Assembly: GCA_016234935.1 (NCBI GenBank)
Contig: JACRNL010000001.1
Span: 264,679-328,678, forward strand
Source of the DNA: Deltaproteobacteria bacterium
GTDB taxonomy: Bacteria > Desulfobacterota > GWC2-55-46
Length of the DNA stretch: 64,000 bases
Direction: 5' to 3'
Notes under the pieces: generated by a model
The model's input: the letters and a program-made list of their open reading frames with translations, nothing else
Databases searched by the model: none
Told to the model about the DNA's origin: nothing
Part shown: piece after piece, positions 10,450-60,027 of the stretch
Layout: every line of letters starts with the position of its first letter
Numbering within the stretch: the first letter of the stretch is position 1
Program-made: the position numbers and the translations under genes

Positions 10450-10806
10450 TCATGTGAAGATCATATCCACGGCTACTATGAAAAGCAATATCCCGAAACC
10501 CTTCTTTAAGACGTTTACCGGTATATACTGCGCCGCATACGCGCCTACGAAGCCGCCTATTAAAAAACCGCCGGCGATAAAGGCCGCCGTCTTAAGCTCT
10601 ACGTTGCCCCTTCTGTAATACTCAAGAAAGGCCAGCAGGCCGATGGGCGGCAAAAGCACAGCAAGGGACGTCCCCTGCGCCTGAAGCTGGTTCATCTTGA
10701 AAAAAAAGACGAGCGCCGGGATGATAATCAGCGCGCCGCCTATGCCCAAAAGCCCGCTGATAACGCCGCTCATGAGGCCAAGAAGAAGCAATCCGGCAAA
10801 GTGCAT
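10450..10806 (-). CDS. Half-size TSUP (TauE/SafE) family permease
   Basis: A 118-residue integral membrane protein with about four hydrophobic segments. The N-terminal GLMSGVISGLLGIGGALIII repeat and the following Q-A-Q-G-T-S-L motif are diagnostic of the TSUP/DUF81 (TauE/SafE) family. Full-length members have 7-8 segments made of two such halves, so this is a single-half version that would need to dimerise. The family exports or imports sulfite, sulfoacetate, small organic acids and similar anions. Its place between leuC and leuD, in the same orientation, suggests cotranscription; a link to leucine intermediates is only an inference. Confidence 0.85.
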   Translation of the reverse strand: MHFAGLLLLGLMSGVISGLLGIGGALIIIPALVFFFKMNQLQAQGTSLAVLLPPIGLLAFLEYYRRGNVELKTAAFIAGGFLIGGFVGAYAAQYIPVNVLKKGFGILLFIVAVDMIFT

Positions 10807-10891
10807 GGCTTTCTCCCTTCTCCACGATTATAAGCTCAAACAACGCCGCTTAATCGAAGCAGCCATCCGCACGCGCAAAGGTTCACGCGCC

Positions 10892-30233: not shown

Positions 30234-31016
30234 CTATTCGACAATCCTTACCCTCATCTCAACCCGCTCATTTGGAAGGTCATTCGGGTTTCTGGGAAGA
30301 TTGACTATCTTGTCAACCGCCTCCATACCCTTCGTGACCTCGCCGAAGACGGTGTATTGCCTGTCGAGGAAGTTTGAATCCTTCACGACGATAAAAAACT
30401 GCGACCCGGCGCTGTTGGGGTCCTGCGATCTTGCCATCGAGAGGATGCCGCGTTTGTGCGGCTTATCGCTGAACTCGGCGGGTATCGTATAGCCTGGGCC
30501 GCCCATGCCGTAGCTCCTTACGTCCTGGGTCTTGGTGTTAGGGTCTCCGCCCTGGATCATGAAGCCGGGGATAACCCTGTGGAAGATAGTCCCGTTGTAA
30601 AAGCCCTTTTCAGCAAGCGTTATGAAGTTTTCAACGTGCTTGTTCGCGGCGTCACGGAATAATTTTATCTCTATGTCGCCGTACTTAGTCTCTATTATCG
30701 CCGTATTCTTCAGTTTTTCCACTTTTTTTTCTCCTTTTTTTATTGCACCCTTTGTCTTGGGCTTCCATTCAGTCTTGATCTGCTTTTTCAGAGCGTCCCT
30801 TTGAGCGGTCACTGCCGTGAGCTTTGCCTTAACGCCGTCAACTTCCTTTTGCAGACTCGCGGCCTTGCTTTCAAGCCCAACGCTCTTTTCGGTGAGGGTT
30901 GAAACCGCCGCCTTCAGCTGCTTGTTCTCCTGCTTGAAGTCCTGGCCGCAACCGGACGCCGAAGCGAGCATGACCGCCAAAACAACGGCTAACAGTCCGA
31001 GTTTTTTCATCACCAT
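30234..31016 (-). CDS. Lipoprotein-like cyclophilin with coiled-coil spacer
   Basis: Peptidyl-prolyl cis-trans isomerase of the cyclophilin family, 260 residues from the ATG at 31016 (AAGGAG 7 bases upstream). A signal peptide ends in ASASGCGQ, a plausible though imperfect lipobox. Residues ~25-90 are a heptad-rich coiled coil. The cyclophilin domain follows: IIETKYGDIEIKLF, FYNGTIFHRVIPGFMIQGGD, GPGYTIPAEF, GILSMARSQDPNSAGSQFFI and YTVFGEVTKGMEAVDKI. It is probably an envelope foldase. A paralogue lies immediately upstream. Confidence 0.93.
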   Translation of the reverse strand: MVMKKLGLLAVVLAVMLASASGCGQDFKQENKQLKAAVSTLTEKSVGLESKAASLQKEVDGVKAKLTAVTAQRDALKKQIKTEWKPKTKGAIKKGEKKVEKLKNTAIIETKYGDIEIKLFRDAANKHVENFITLAEKGFYNGTIFHRVIPGFMIQGGDPNTKTQDVRSYGMGGPGYTIPAEFSDKPHKRGILSMARSQDPNSAGSQFFIVVKDSNFLDRQYTVFGEVTKGMEAVDKIVNLPRNPNDLPNERVEMRVRIVE

Positions 31017-31055
31017 GCCTTTCTCCTTTTCGTTCTTAACATTAATCAACCGGCA

Positions 31056-31132: not shown

Positions 31133-31771
31133 TTACTTCCTTTTCCTTTTCTTTATTTCAACTATCTTCACCTTAATCTCGACGCGCTCATCAGGTATGT
31201 CATCCTTATCGCGCGCGAGCGCCGCTATCCTGTCGGCCACGTCCATGCCCCTCGTGACCATGCCGAAGACGGTGTAGCGCCTGTCCAGATGCGGGGAGTC
31301 GGCAACCACTACAAAAAACTGCGACCCCGCGCTGCCGGGATCCTCTCCCCTTGCCATTGAGACGATGCCCCTCATGTGGGGGATAATATTAAACTCTCCG
31401 GGTATGGTGTATCCGGGACCGCCGTTGCCGTAACTTGACCTGTCAGAGCCGGCTATCCTTGTCAGCGGGTCTCCGCCCTGTATCATGAAACCTGGTATCA
31501 CCCTATGGAAGATAGTCCCGTCATAATAGCCCCTTTGCGCAAGAAATATGAAGTTGTCAACGTGCAGGGGGGCCTCTTCCGGAAAGAACATTATCTCCAT
31601 CTCTCCGTAGTTCGTCTGGATAACGGCCCTTGTCCTTTTCAGCTTATCGGCCTTTTCGGCGGCCTGCTCCTCCTGGGTCTGCTCCACCCTGGGCACGTTC
31701 ACGCAGCCGTGCGCTGAAAAAAAGACCAGAAACGTCAGTGATACAAATGCCTTTCTTACGCTACTTGGCAT
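31133..31771 (-). CDS. Lipoprotein-like cyclophilin (paralogue)
   Basis: A 212-residue peptidyl-prolyl isomerase closely similar in the catalytic domain to the neighbouring gene (GYYDGTIFHRVIPGFMIQGGD, YGNGGPGYTIPGEF, SMARGEDPGSAGSQFF, YTVFGMVTRGMDVADRI). The signal peptide ends in FSAHGCVN, suggesting a lipidated Cys. It lacks the long coiled coil of its paralogue. The pair probably arose by tandem duplication, with a family A repeat between them. Confidence 0.93.
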   Translation of the reverse strand: MPSSVRKAFVSLTFLVFFSAHGCVNVPRVEQTQEEQAAEKADKLKRTRAVIQTNYGEMEIMFFPEEAPLHVDNFIFLAQRGYYDGTIFHRVIPGFMIQGGDPLTRIAGSDRSSYGNGGPGYTIPGEFNIIPHMRGIVSMARGEDPGSAGSQFFVVVADSPHLDRRYTVFGMVTRGMDVADRIAALARDKDDIPDERVEIKVKIVEIKKRKRK

Positions 31772-31888: not shown

Positions 31889-32025
31889 GCAGCCTGCTTA
31901 GCAGGCTGCTCAAAAAGCCCCAGCTACTAGGCGACGAGGAGCGAAGAACGAGGCGTAGTATGTCCTACGCCGCAGTGATGAGCGACGAAGGCAACGCAGT
32001 AGATGGGGCTTTTTCAGCAGCCTGC
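31889..32025. repeat. Family C long palindromic element (copy 1)
   Basis: A 137-bp element with inverted ends: left GCAGGCTGCTCAAAAAGCCC, right (reverse complement) GCAGGCTGCTGAAAAAGCCC. Inner arms continue CAGCTACT/CATCTACTG, and the apex pairs GGCGTAG with CTACGCC. The right end supplies the codons for the last residues and the TGA of the CCA enzyme gene. The second copy lies at 59211-59376. Confidence 0.85.
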
Positions 32026-33519
32026 TGCCTTCAGCCGTTTCCTTACGTAAGCCTTTGCCTCTTTTTTATCCTTCACCACGCCCGCCTCAATGCCCTCCGA
32101 TATCTTTTTAATTATCTCTCCCACAAGAGGGCCCTCAGGGATTTTAAAGACCCGCATTATCTCCCTTCCGTTCATCAGCGGCGCGGCGCGTTTTTTCAAA
32201 AAGTGTTCATAATAGAAGCGCAGCATCTCATTGACGAACTTCAGAAACCGCCTGTCCTCGCCCCCGCGCGTAGCCCTTACGTCCGCAACGGACAGTAAAA
32301 GCAGGTCAACCGCCGCGCCCTTCCATATTCCATCAACGCCGTCAGCGGCGCGGAGCAGATGCGCCTTTGCCCTGTCGCTCCTCTTTTTCAGTTTGGCCAG
32401 CGCAAATATCCTGTGGTGGTTTTTCACGAGGTTTGCGATCTCGGCGGCGACCCTGCCGCTGAACCTGAGCCTCCTGAATATCCCGTTTATCAGGACGGCG
32501 CCTTCGCGGTCGTGCCCCTTAAAGCTGAGCTTGCCGGAAGTCCGCCCTCTGAGAGGGTTCAACTTAACAGTCAGCGGCTTGCCTGCGTCGTGAAAAAAAG
32601 CGGCCATCTTGAAAAATACCTTCCTGTCAAGGGAACCTGCAGGGCAGAGAAAGTGCCTCGAAAGATTTTCAGCGAGGCCGGGAAATGCCTTCCCTGCCGT
32701 ATCCATCGCCTCGTCAATAACGGCCTCCCCCTCGTCGAGCGTTTTGAGGGAATGCGCGAGCAGGTCATACCCCTGAGGGGGTTCAACCCCTCCGGCATCG
32801 CGCCAATGGAGCGCCTCCGGCAGTATGGCCTTGATGACGCCGAGATAATACAGGGCGCTGACGGCGCGCGATGCTCCGACGCACCTGAATATGGCCGTCA
32901 GCTCCTCCCTTACTCGCTCCGGAGCGACGCCGGTTAAAAGCGGTGAGGCCTTTTTTACGGCGGCCGCGGTATCAGGCGTGATCTTAAGCCCGTATTGCCG
33001 GGCGATCCTTACGGCGCGCAGGCACCTCAGCGGGTCTTCAAGGAACGCCTTCCTGGAATTCATGCGCAGCCGAAGGCACGCCGCGTCATCAAGGCCGCCG
33101 CACGGGTCAAACAGCCGGGGCGCGTCTTCGGTGAAAAGCTCCGCCACGCCGACGGCCAGGGCGTCCACCGTAAAGTCCCGGCTTTTCAGGTCGCACGATA
33201 TGCCGCCATCCTTAACAGAAGAAATGTCTATTGTGCATGGCGCGCCATTGACTCTCGCGGCAACCCTGTAAGAAAGGGTTTCTTTATCAAGGATGAACGC
33301 GCTGCCTCCGAGCCTCGACGCGAACTTGCCGGCAAGAAGGGCCGTCCTGCCGTCGTAAACAAAGTCATAGTCCGGCGGCAACGGCCTGCCGAGCGCCAGG
33401 TTCCTCAATACCCCGCCAACAAGGTACAAACCCTGCCTTTTAACGGCGCCGCGCGCCTCTTTCAAGACCGGGTCGCTTCGCAGCAGCTTCAGCGCTTCCT
33501 GAAAATGCAAAAGGGGCAT
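32014..33519 (-). CDS. cca: CCA tRNA nucleotidyltransferase / poly(A) polymerase family, HD domain
   Basis: Class II nucleotidyltransferase of 501 residues from the ATG at 33519. Motifs: LVGGVLRNLALG, DxD in PDYDFVYDG, the RDFTVDALAV strand, EDPLRCLRAVRIARQYG, and a C-terminal HD-domain FHDAGKPLTV. It adds or repairs the tRNA 3' CCA, or polyadenylates RNA. Two family A palindromes lie in frame (LNPLRG near 32544-32563; GVEPPQG near 32770-32790), and its C-terminus AAGC and stop come from a family C element. The start lies inside another A repeat, whose AAGGGGC would serve as ribosome-binding site. Confidence 0.9.
   Translation of the reverse strand: MPLLHFQEALKLLRSDPVLKEARGAVKRQGLYLVGGVLRNLALGRPLPPDYDFVYDGRTALLAGKFASRLGGSAFILDKETLSYRVAARVNGAPCTIDISSVKDGGISCDLKSRDFTVDALAVGVAELFTEDAPRLFDPCGGLDDAACLRLRMNSRKAFLEDPLRCLRAVRIARQYGLKITPDTAAAVKKASPLLTGVAPERVREELTAIFRCVGASRAVSALYYLGVIKAILPEALHWRDAGGVEPPQGYDLLAHSLKTLDEGEAVIDEAMDTAGKAFPGLAENLSRHFLCPAGSLDRKVFFKMAAFFHDAGKPLTVKLNPLRGRTSGKLSFKGHDREGAVLINGIFRRLRFSGRVAAEIANLVKNHHRIFALAKLKKRSDRAKAHLLRAADGVDGIWKGAAVDLLLLSVADVRATRGGEDRRFLKFVNEMLRFYYEHFLKKRAAPLMNGREIMRVFKIPEGPLVGEIIKKISEGIEAGVVKDKKEAKAYVRKRLKAAGC
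32544..32563. repeat. Family A repeat (copy 7) inside cca coding sequence
   Basis: GCCCTCTGAGAGGGTTCAAC in the window orientation; read leftward it encodes K-L-N-P-L-R-G within the HD region. The frame stays open. Confidence 0.7.
32770..32790. repeat. Family A repeat (copy 8) inside cca coding sequence
   Basis: CCCCTGAGGGGGTT followed by CAACCCC; read leftward it encodes G-V-E-P-P-Q-G at the junction with the HD region. Confidence 0.8.
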
Positions 33520-33546
33520 ATGCCCCTTGAGGGGGCTCAGCCCCCT
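33512..33546. repeat. Family A repeat (copy 9) at the cca start
   Basis: AGGGGCATATGCCCCTTGAG and GGGGCTCAGCCCC. The leftward ATG of cca (33519-33517) is contained in it, and AAGGGGC in the repeat is positioned as a ribosome-binding site. Confidence 0.75.
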
Positions 33547-33596
33547 GTTTTTTTTATCCGCCCTGAAGTCCAACATATCCGGCGCGCCGCGCGGGT

Positions 33597-35516
33597 TCAC
33601 AAAAGCTCCACCTCCAGCATGCCGTCATCCGTCGGCGCGCCGCCTTCGCCCTCACCGGCCCCTGTCTCTATCTTGAATTCCTTCATCTTGGCTGCGACCT
33701 CTCTGTATGCCGGATCGATGGCGTGGATCGCCCTGTAAAGCTCGGCGGCCTCATCCTTGCTTTCGGCGGCCTCGTAAGCCAGGGCAAGCTCGTACATGGC
33801 GCCCTTTCTCTCCTCCTCGCCGCGGTTTTTGACCTTGAGCGACTTCAGATAATACGTGATGGCCTCATCCGGCTTTGCCTGCGACATATAGCACAGTCCC
33901 AGCCTCGCGTAGCAGTCAAATTCAATGTTATGGTCTTTAGCGGCTATCTTGAACTCCTTGCACGCCTCGGTGAAAAGCTCCATCTCCATGTAGGCAATGC
34001 CGAGGTTGTAGTGCGTCTCGCTGTCTTCCTTTCCGAGCTGGCTTTCTATGCCGGATTTAAACTCCTCGACCGTGGCCTTGTCCCCGCCTTTCGCGAAAGA
34101 CTCGGCCATGTCCTTAAACAGATTCTCAAGCCCCAAGTCCTCAAGGCCGATTTCCGCGGCAAGGTCAACGAACTCATCTTCACCGGCCCCTTCCATGCCT
34201 TCGCCGCCCTCTTCCATTGCGGAAGGCCCTTCGGCAAAGGCAGGTTCTTCAACATGAGGCTCCAAAGTGAGCGCCTCCTCGACAACTTCCTCCTCGATGC
34301 TTATCTCCGCAAGCTCCTCATGATGCTCATGCGCTTCCGGCGCCGCCTCGACAGGCTCGATCTCGACCACTTCATGGGATATCTCGATCTCGGCCTCGCG
34401 GGCGGCAGGCGCGCCTGTCTCTGCTTGCAAGGGTTCAACCCTCGCCGGAGACTCAAACCCTTCAAGCTCTATCTCTATCTCAGGCGAAGGCGCCGGAGCA
34501 GACGGCCTAAGCGCAAAATCCGGCATATCTATCAAGGGGGCTTCTTCCGTCTTTTCGGCCTTTACCTCAGGGGCCTTCCGAGGCTCCTCGACCTTCGGCT
34601 TGACCTCGGCTTCGATCAGGTCAAAATCAATCAGCGGCTCCTCTTCGTGATCGGTGATGTCCATGGCCGCGAGTACCGCTTCTTTAGAAACCTGCTCGAC
34701 CTTCTTCTCGCCGGCCGCCGGGACATTAAAATGGCTCAAAAAGCCCAGGCTCTCGGCGTCATCCGGCCTAACGGTGAGTATCTCTTCGGCAACGGACTTT
34801 GCCTTATCCTCATCGCCTTTATCCTTGTAAATATTCGCAAGCTGGTGCGCATGTCGCAGGTACTGGGCAATGTCGCCCTTTGCCTTGTAAAGTCCGCCCA
34901 GACCGATATGTATCTGCGGCTCTTTGGGATAGATGCGCAGGAGTGTGTGATATATCTTTTCGGCCTTATCGGCCTTGCCCTGCGCCGTGAGCTTTGCAAA
35001 TATGATGGAGTATTCGCCGAGGGAATCCTTGTGAAAGCCCTGCTTATGATAGCAGTCCGCGATCTTCAGCCTGATGCCGACGTTCTCCGGGTCAATGCCG
35101 ACCATCTTTTTAAGGAGCTCTATCGCGTCGTCCATCCTGCCCTTCTTCTCAAATGTGCTGAGCAGGAAGGAATACTCGTTGATGGCGTCTACTATGAGCC
35201 TCTGCTTGGTGTAGAGATCGGCCAGCTTGTTGTGGACGTCGATGTTGGCCGCGTCGAGCTTCAAGACCTGCTTGTAGACGGCGATGGCCTTCAGGTAAAA
35301 GCCCTTTTGCGTGTTGACCTTGGCGACGTCCATGTACTCTTTTATGGCGTCTTCCTCGTGTCCCATCTTCACGAAGAGATCTCCAATGCGCAGGCGTATG
35401 GAGATGTCCTTGGCGTCCACATCGGCGGCGTTCCTGTATTCGGCTATCGCCTTGTCAAGCTGGCCCTTCTGTATGAACTTCTGGGCCTTTTCGAGTATGT
35501 TTTCTTTCAGTCCCAT
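33597..35516 (-). CDS. Large TPR-repeat protein with acidic hinge
   Basis: A 639-residue protein with no signal peptide. Residues ~1-270 contain about seven tetratricopeptide repeats (AQKFIQKGQLDKAIAEYRNA, FVKMGHEEDAIKEYMDVAKV and others). Residues ~275-450 are a Glu/Ala/Pro-rich, low-complexity acidic linker, and the C-terminal ~180 residues return to TPRs (YNLGIAYMEMELFTEACKEF, YARLGLCYMSQAKPDEAITYY). TPR proteins scaffold complexes; the partner is unknown. A family A repeat is read in frame in the linker (R-V-E-P-L-Q). A long antisense frame over it is a codon-bias shadow. Confidence 0.9.
   Translation of the reverse strand: MGLKENILEKAQKFIQKGQLDKAIAEYRNAADVDAKDISIRLRIGDLFVKMGHEEDAIKEYMDVAKVNTQKGFYLKAIAVYKQVLKLDAANIDVHNKLADLYTKQRLIVDAINEYSFLLSTFEKKGRMDDAIELLKKMVGIDPENVGIRLKIADCYHKQGFHKDSLGEYSIIFAKLTAQGKADKAEKIYHTLLRIYPKEPQIHIGLGGLYKAKGDIAQYLRHAHQLANIYKDKGDEDKAKSVAEEILTVRPDDAESLGFLSHFNVPAAGEKKVEQVSKEAVLAAMDITDHEEEPLIDFDLIEAEVKPKVEEPRKAPEVKAEKTEEAPLIDMPDFALRPSAPAPSPEIEIELEGFESPARVEPLQAETGAPAAREAEIEISHEVVEIEPVEAAPEAHEHHEELAEISIEEEVVEEALTLEPHVEEPAFAEGPSAMEEGGEGMEGAGEDEFVDLAAEIGLEDLGLENLFKDMAESFAKGGDKATVEEFKSGIESQLGKEDSETHYNLGIAYMEMELFTEACKEFKIAAKDHNIEFDCYARLGLCYMSQAKPDEAITYYLKSLKVKNRGEEERKGAMYELALAYEAAESKDEAAELYRAIHAIDPAYREVAAKMKEFKIETGAGEGEGGAPTDDGMLEVELL
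34429..34442. repeat. Family A core (copy 10) inside the TPR protein gene
   Basis: AAGGGTTCAACCCT; read leftward it encodes A-R-V-E-P-L-Q, in the acidic linker. It is the shortest copy and could be coincidental. Confidence 0.45.
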
Positions 35517-59130: not shown

Positions 59131-59166
59131 AAAAAACCCGCACCTTGTATACTCAAGATGCGGGCT
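59131..59166 (-). terminator. Rho-independent terminator upstream of the GGDEF/EAL gene
   Basis: CCCGCA/TGCGGG stem with a ~22-base partly paired loop (CTTG...CAAG), followed on the leftward strand by a run of T. It would stop transcription from rpe before the GGDEF/EAL gene. Confidence 0.7.
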
Positions 59167-59210
59167 TCACGATTGAACGACCAGACAGACTGCGGTATCT
59201 GTTTTTTTGA

Positions 59211-59376
59211 GCGGCCTGCTAAGGGCAGGCTCTCAAAACATGTCCCCGCAGGCTTTAAGCGGGGAAGCCCCAGCTACCAGGCGACGAGGAGCGAGGAACG
59301 AGGCGTGCTTTTGGGCACGCCGTTCGTTCCGAGCGACGAAGGCAACGCAGTAGATTGGGCTTTTTCAGCAGCCTGC
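59211..59376. repeat. Family C long palindromic element (copy 2) with nested family B
   Basis: Same ends and interior as the copy at 31889-32025 (CAGCTACCAGGCGACGAGGA, GCGACGAAGGCAACGCAGTA, GGGCTTTTTCAGCAGCCTGC), with the apical stem changed in both arms (GGCGTGC/GCACGCC). A family B unit (59239-59264) is inserted in the left arm. The right end supplies the last residues and the TGA of rpe. Confidence 0.85.
59239..59264. repeat. Family B repeat (copy 5), inserted in family C
   Basis: CATGTCCCCGCAGGCTTTAA and GCGGGG, in inverted orientation, between CTCAAAA and AAGCCCC of the C element. The other C copy lacks it at this site. Confidence 0.8.
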
Positions 59377-60027
59377 GGCGGCGGCCCTCATTGCGGCGAT
59401 AGTCTTCTTATAATCCGGCGTGCCCAAGACGCCGGAGCCTGACACGAACACGCCGGCGCCTGCGCCGGCCGCGTCTTTTATGTTGCTCACCTTTATGCCG
59501 CCATCTACCTCAAGCTCTATCGCCCTTCCGGCGGCGTCTATCATCTTCCTGACTATTTCTATCTTGCGGAGGCTTCCTGGTATGAAACCCTGCCCTGAAA
59601 AGCCGGGGTTCACGGACATTATCAGCACGAGGTCGACGTCCGGCAGAATCTCCTCAAGCGCCGAGGCCGGAGTGGCCGGGTTCAGAGACACCCCCGCCTT
59701 CACGCCAAGCTCTTTTATCGCCTGAACCGTCCTGTGCAGATGCCTCGTGGCCTCCGCGTGCACGGTGATGATGGCGCTGCCGGCCTTCGCGAACTCCCCG
59801 ACATACCTTTCAGGCTCTTCTATCATGAGGTGCACGTCAAGTGGCAGTTTCGACGCCCTTTTGACTGCCTCGACTATGAACGGGCCTATGGTTATGTTCG
59901 GGACGAAGCGCCCGTCCATAACGTCAATATGTATGTAGTCCGCGCCCGCCGCCTCCAGGGCCGCAAGCTCATCTTTCAGCTTTGTGAAGTCGGCGGAAAG
60001 TATCGAAGGGGAAATCTTGACTGTCAT
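59365..60027 (-). CDS. rpe: Ribulose-phosphate 3-epimerase
   Basis: TIM-barrel epimerase (220 residues) interconverting ribulose- and xylulose-5-phosphate. ISPSILSADFTKL, metal/catalytic residues in YIHIDVMDGRFVPNITIGP, LDVHLMIEEPERY, MSVNPGFSGQGFIP and LEVDGGI are all present. The C-terminal A-A-A-A-G-C and the TGA are encoded by the right end of a family C repeat, just as in cca. Confidence 0.97.
   Translation of the reverse strand: MTVKISPSILSADFTKLKDELAALEAAGADYIHIDVMDGRFVPNITIGPFIVEAVKRASKLPLDVHLMIEEPERYVGEFAKAGSAIITVHAEATRHLHRTVQAIKELGVKAGVSLNPATPASALEEILPDVDLVLIMSVNPGFSGQGFIPGSLRKIEIVRKMIDAAGRAIELEVDGGIKVSNIKDAAGAGAGVFVSGSGVLGTPDYKKTIAAMRAAAAGC

Follow-up and report, generated by a model that had tools for sequence, protein, structure and literature searches.

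The DNA analysed here (the window, 64,000 nt of a deltaproteobacterial contig) contains two copies of a palindromic repeat, family C, at the 3' ends of the genes cca (32014-33600, minus strand) and rpe (59365-60027, minus strand). The initial annotation had placed these copies at 31889-32025 and 59211-59376 in the same orientation, and both their orientation and their places were confirmed in the window sequence. As it had also described, GCA GGC TGC TGA is read leftward from both right ends in frame with cca and rpe, and the sequence after the stop (AAAAAGCCC) begins a long hairpin. Its folding energy is -65 kcal/mol for each strand, with z of -6.6 and -8.0. The 20-mer of the repeat end has three matches in the window compared with 0.02 expected.

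At cca, the family C palindrome (31901..32025, minus strand, 125 bp) matches the family profile in full, with its C-end at 32025 and its L-end at 31901. The terminal inverted repeat CAGGCTGCTGAAAAA of the C-end (32010..32024, minus strand) has the same sequence as the ends of ISRssp10-like elements of the IS5 family, and the inner arm CAGGCTGCTCAAAAA of the L-end (31902..31916, plus strand) pairs with the C-end bar one conserved mismatch. The TGA stop of cca (32014..32016, minus strand) lies within the element, at position 10-12 from the element end. The L-end of this copy is not followed by the tail of about 30 nt that complete copies possess. At rpe, recognisable family sequence extends over 59265..59376 (minus strand) with the C-end at 59376, the terminal inverted repeat CAGGCTGCTGAAAAA at 59361..59375 (minus strand) and the TGA stop of rpe, again within the element, at 59365..59367 (minus strand). 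This copy is a mosaic, which corrects the initial annotation: its left third (59200..59264, minus strand) is a different sequence, made up of a hairpin module of another kind (CCCCGC..GCGGGGACATG) plus a further element end (GCAGGCCGCTCAAAAAAAC). A separate hairpin resembling a canonical intrinsic terminator (59133..59168, minus strand, 15 pairs followed by a T run) is located beyond the element, downstream of rpe. Tail and target duplication are absent from both window copies. Two adjacent genes elsewhere in the window (30234-31049 and 31133-31771, minus strand) both encode products that resemble cyclophilin-type peptidyl-prolyl isomerases, as judged from their translations.

Similarity searches with either window copy as the query returned at least 40 scored copies each. 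Copies were counted as found by DNA similarity, and the stretches around about 80 places were read. Alignment of 51 clean copies gave a profile with 84 non-overlapping matches in the genome, 63 of which are complete palindromes with unique flanks (hereafter own copies); the same analysis was applied to 98 further complete copies from relatives. The genome holds about 85 copies, and hundreds of candidates were found in related uncultured Deltaproteobacteria. The end 20-mer detected 145 ends in the 2.15-Mb genome, whereas the reversed control pattern detected none. The element occurs in most genomes of the same bacterial family and, within the order, in a few others, the named carriers being mostly uncultured groundwater Deltaproteobacteria. 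The 125-bp palindrome was not found on plasmids or phages. A known RNA family was also considered and was dropped, since Rfam gave no match at the gathering threshold. Family C is short (about 150 bp), non-coding and dispersed over about 85 places of its own genome, as expected of a MITE.

Complete copies measure about 150 bp, start with CAGGCTGYTGAAAAA, finish with TTTTTCAGCNNCCTG and contain a long internal palindrome. The palindrome of 125 bp pairs end to end, with the exception of a conserved mismatch where the C-end reads TGA inward and the L-end TCA. Seventeen of its 33 pairs were altered on both sides; such compensatory changes amounted to 83 cells compared with 24 in shuffles, none of which reached a value as high. 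The element further shows a symmetry of A-tract, GC stem and T-tract. Beyond the L-end follows a tail of about 30 nt ending in TTTTTCAGCNNCCTG, the inverse of the C-end, and therefore the complete element is a unit of about 150 bp bounded by the terminal repeats CAGGCTGCTGAAAAA. Both C-end CAGGCTGCTGAAAAA and tail TTTTTCAGCNNCCTG, that is, the terminal inverted repeats that characterise a MITE, are present in 32 of the 63 own copies and in 66/98 copies of the relatives. About half of the own copies have neither a recognisable tail nor a duplication. Small hairpin modules differ between otherwise similar copies, being inserted or swapped beside the L-end as if hairpins collect at one internal place. 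The module CCCCGC..GCGGGGACATG of the rpe copy (59200-59264) recurs at two other loci (L056, L094), the module ACCCATGCTCCGCATGGGT is present at four (L076, L077, L078, L082) and the module CCCATTGC..GCAATGGG at five (L051, L063, L074, L075, L079). A separate repeat, ATCGTTCCCACGCTCCGGCGTGGGAACG, lies beside several element copies (L057, L075 near 9094, and L092).

Complete copies are flanked by a 4-bp direct repeat with the consensus YTAR (C/T-T-A-A/G). Left and right 4-mers were identical in 11 of 27 own copies compared with 4.1 after shuffling, and in 23 of 61 copies of the relatives compared with 7.3; in either of these two independent sets, none of 5000 shuffles reached the observed value (0/5000). 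Only at Y and R, the variable letters of the consensus, do left and right matches exceed expectation. One locus provided a single pair of sites in sister species, one filled and the other empty: G008 carries TG-TTAG, a 152-bp element and TTAG-CC, whereas G016 carries TG-TTAG-CC. The TAG of this site is the native stop codon of the same gene in both species, whose last residues correspond (VIERSC* in G008, VIERTC* in G016). Both a duplicated target and a filled/empty site, by which a MITE is recognised, were thus found for the family. At the same locus of G016 (L245), an unrelated 84-bp insertion is situated a few letters beyond the empty TTAG site. Two other kinds of site had been considered. 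A 2-bp TA duplication of the IS630/Tc1 type was replaced by the 4-bp YTAR, as both outer letters co-vary and PF13358 is lacking in the genome; an integron attC-like site, suggested by the anatomy, was dropped, since a target duplication is present and cassettes are absent.

The position of gene stops relative to the element was determined with a home-made codon-usage gene caller. Genes that run into the C-end stop either at -1 (15 own copies, 20 in relatives) or at -12 (6 own copies, 2 in relatives), and genes that run into the tail end stop at -1 in 4 own copies and 5 copies of the relatives. Altogether, a stop lies exactly at the element end (-1) in 19 of the 63 complete own copies and in 24 of the 98 copies of the relatives. 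To this extent the initial reading is supported: stops fall at two sharp positions, -1 and -12, and no read-through in the third frame was seen. In the -1 class the stop codon is made of TA or TG of the flank and the first letter of the repeat as it was first delimited. Where such copies have a tail, the same stop letters usually recur past the element, which indicates insertion into the native stop codon, with its duplication. Since YTAR contains TAA and TAG, the stop is duplicated upon insertion; an insertion at a native stop codon leaves the upstream gene with its stop and the protein unchanged. The frequency of these coincidences follows the target. A YTAR flank is present in 48 complete copies, of which 14 lie at a stop, while 12.6 are expected from random YTAR sites in spacers (p 0.24); with any TA dinucleotide as the target, 18 of 59 lie at stops against 12.3 expected, a mild excess (p 0.0125). 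The proposal that the element targets gene ends is not borne out by these data: the target is YTAR, it is used on either side of genes and in either orientation, and stops are hit as YTAR predicts. These counts can be explained without invoking any special attraction to gene ends. The element does provide the stop codon in the -12 class including cca and rpe, where the TGA lies within it, but not in the main class, where the stop is the gene's own, duplicated.

The ending A-G-C-stop described for cca and rpe was found at both genes; as a general outcome it did not hold, being present in only 6/63 complete own copies and 2/98 copies of the relatives. One of the six complete own copies of this class has a YTAR flank and five have no tail, and the C-ends at cca and rpe have no YTAR. 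The -12 class probably arose by later deletion or rearrangement. On the simplest reading, such an event would have removed the native stop of cca and rpe together with the duplication, leaving translation to end at the first TGA that the element offers in frame. The comparison of orthologous C-termini that had been advised showed that Rpe and Cca proteins end variously past the conserved part, with their own stops, and an added A-G-C tail is therefore tolerated. In G005, rpe (L210) ends within an apparent element end (GGC CGC TAA AAA GTC CAT CTG C), TAA replacing TGA at the same element position, and in G008 an element end follows rpe (L213). Together with the window, these cases show that rpe adjoins such elements in three genera.

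The ends of family C are shared with IS5-family elements. Five plasmid elements of this family (1364-1368 bp) have ends that match those of family C within 3 letters, in one case with CAGGCTGCTGAAAAA exact, and are flanked by TTAA, TTAG or CTAA duplications; one of them is annotated as belonging to the ISRssp10 family. YTAR is the conserved target duplication of IS5 (PMC10359306). Moreover, two contigs end inside a longer element that carries the start of an IS5/IS1182-like transposase (DUF772) just within the same end. A terminal-repeat scan of viral contigs revealed MITEs that share these ends and the YTAR duplications while their interiors are unrelated; on these viral or prophage contigs the duplication is CTAG in L252, TTAA in L253, TTAA twice in L255 and CTAA in L257. 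Immediately next to the L252 MITE and one L255 copy (10681-10840, minus strand) lie open frames of 150 and 211 codons, each terminating at the duplicated stop. Matching ends and a 4-bp YTAR duplication, the two features asked of an IS5-mobilised element, were thus both found. Domain searches of this genome gave 0 matches for PF01609, PF13586, PF13358 and PF01797; by PF01609 and PF13586 no cognate IS5-type transposase was recognised in it. Among the loci fetched from this bacterial family there was no autonomous IS with family C ends. A currently active MITE is expected to share its genome with a cognate transposase, but an old one need not. Judging from ends and duplication, an ISRssp10-like IS5 transposase, now absent from the genome or unrecognised in it, may have mobilised the copies in trans.

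Taken together, family C is very probably a mobile IS5-type MITE which inserts at YTAR and thereby duplicates the stop codon, and not a dedicated stop-and-terminate device. For the two window copies, transposition is what we infer from the rest of the family. This reading offers a simple and testable reason, silent insertion, for finding some mobile elements precisely at the ends of genes. YTAR holds two of the three stop codons and should be rare inside the genes of GC-rich genomes, so that the same reason could apply to many IS5-type elements in such genomes. It also names the likely type of mobiliser for a very abundant repeat of uncultured Deltaproteobacteria.

Orientation bears on whether the element acquired a further role. 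A fixed orientation relative to genes was rejected, as all complete copies are balanced (61 ++ versus 59 --), and tailed copies relative to tandem genes are balanced as well (29 versus 35). Gene stops show a preference for the C-end: of 34 inward genes, 19 stop there, compared with 7/34 at the tail end (p 0.0056; a post hoc comparison with 26 exact cases), and the relatives alone give p 0.0145. YTAR targeting alone does not predict this preference. It would fit a mobile element that was later kept near stops in one orientation, its hairpin controlling how stable the mRNA is or how it is processed, in line with what has been proposed for ERIC in Yersinia. Such a role, added to the MITE explanation, may be considered tentatively and is less likely than its absence. 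It is favoured by the C-end, rather than the tail end, lying at stops, by the maintenance of the palindrome through compensatory changes and by the many copies that occupy the whole spacer between co-directional genes; the orientation effect, however, was found after looking, and covariation of the arms can also come from the way in which such elements copy themselves. A wider form, in which an IS5-type MITE was co-opted across the whole deltaproteobacterial family as a stop-adjacent 3'-UTR element, one orientation being kept because the upstream message depends on the hairpin for its decay or processing, appears doubtful. If true, YTAR targeting would make entry at stop codons free of cost.

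The initial annotation had proposed an element aimed at gene ends that combines a stop codon with an intrinsic terminator. Gene stops are tightly clustered at -1 and -12, both strands fold strongly, and the A-tract/GC stem/T-tract symmetry is that of a bidirectional terminator; these features are in line with this proposal, which we nevertheless consider improbable. The coincidence with stops is what YTAR targeting predicts. Convergent gene pairs, which would profit most from a bidirectional terminator, are not favoured, holding 5 of the 63 own copies, about the same share as among the gene pairs of the window, and orientation is balanced overall. In 22 of 52 own tandem copies and 34 of 68 tandem copies of the relatives the next start lies within 30 nt (<=30 nt); these copies must be read through, unless the element itself supplies a promoter, because there is no room for a new one. 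A classical terminator scan of the cca element found only short stems, and the canonical terminator-like hairpin stands apart, beyond the rpe copy. These counts and this separate hairpin do not support the supposed doubling as terminator: a general terminator role is unlikely, but individual copies could still terminate. In 3' UTRs and operon spacers the element would be a transcribed hairpin that is mostly read through, and any effect would more likely concern the processing or stability of the mRNA than termination. Finally, the strong hairpin and the fixed YTA flank at one end might speak for a single-strand element of the REP/RAYT or IS200 type, placed 3' of the short tag TTA. This reading is hardly tenable: complete copies have at both ends a 4-bp direct duplication, which elements of that type do not generate, PF01797 reveals no Y1 transposase in the genome or in copy-rich genomes such as G011, G014 and G019, and the element ends match IS5-family elements.

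In a 2005 study, De Gregorio reportedly found that ERIC overlaps Yersinia stop codons in a preferred orientation, which the preference of family C for its C-end at stops resembles. ERIC/IRU/RU-1 of enterobacteria is, like family C, a palindromic MITE (127 bp) with a TA-containing end motif that lies in intergenic regions and sometimes overlaps gene ends (PMC2229807, PMC2759123), such overlaps having been described for ERIC (PMC2759123). At the 3' ends of genes, ERIC is reported to affect transcript levels (PMC10969869; a transcript effect is also described in PMC2229807). ERIC/IRU differs from family C in its ends, in its phylum and in the target duplication, which is the 2-bp TA; the TA duplication was not found for family C, which has the 4-bp YTAR instead. 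RUP of pneumococcus and Correia/NEMIS of Neisseria are non-autonomous elements of about 107-155 bp, like family C, and RUP is presumably mobilised in trans by IS630-Spn1, an IS whose ends match its own (PMC2229807). Unlike family C, both have a TA target, an IS630-type or unknown mobiliser and different ends. QMITE2 of Coxiella burnetii, a MITE reported mainly in 3' untranslated regions (PMC10969869), is likened to family C by location alone. Compared with the ISRssp10-like elements of the IS5 family, family C is devoid of a transposase, measures about 150 bp and has an unrelated palindromic interior, and the terminal repeat CAGGCTGCTGAAAAA and the 4-bp YTAR duplication are common to both.
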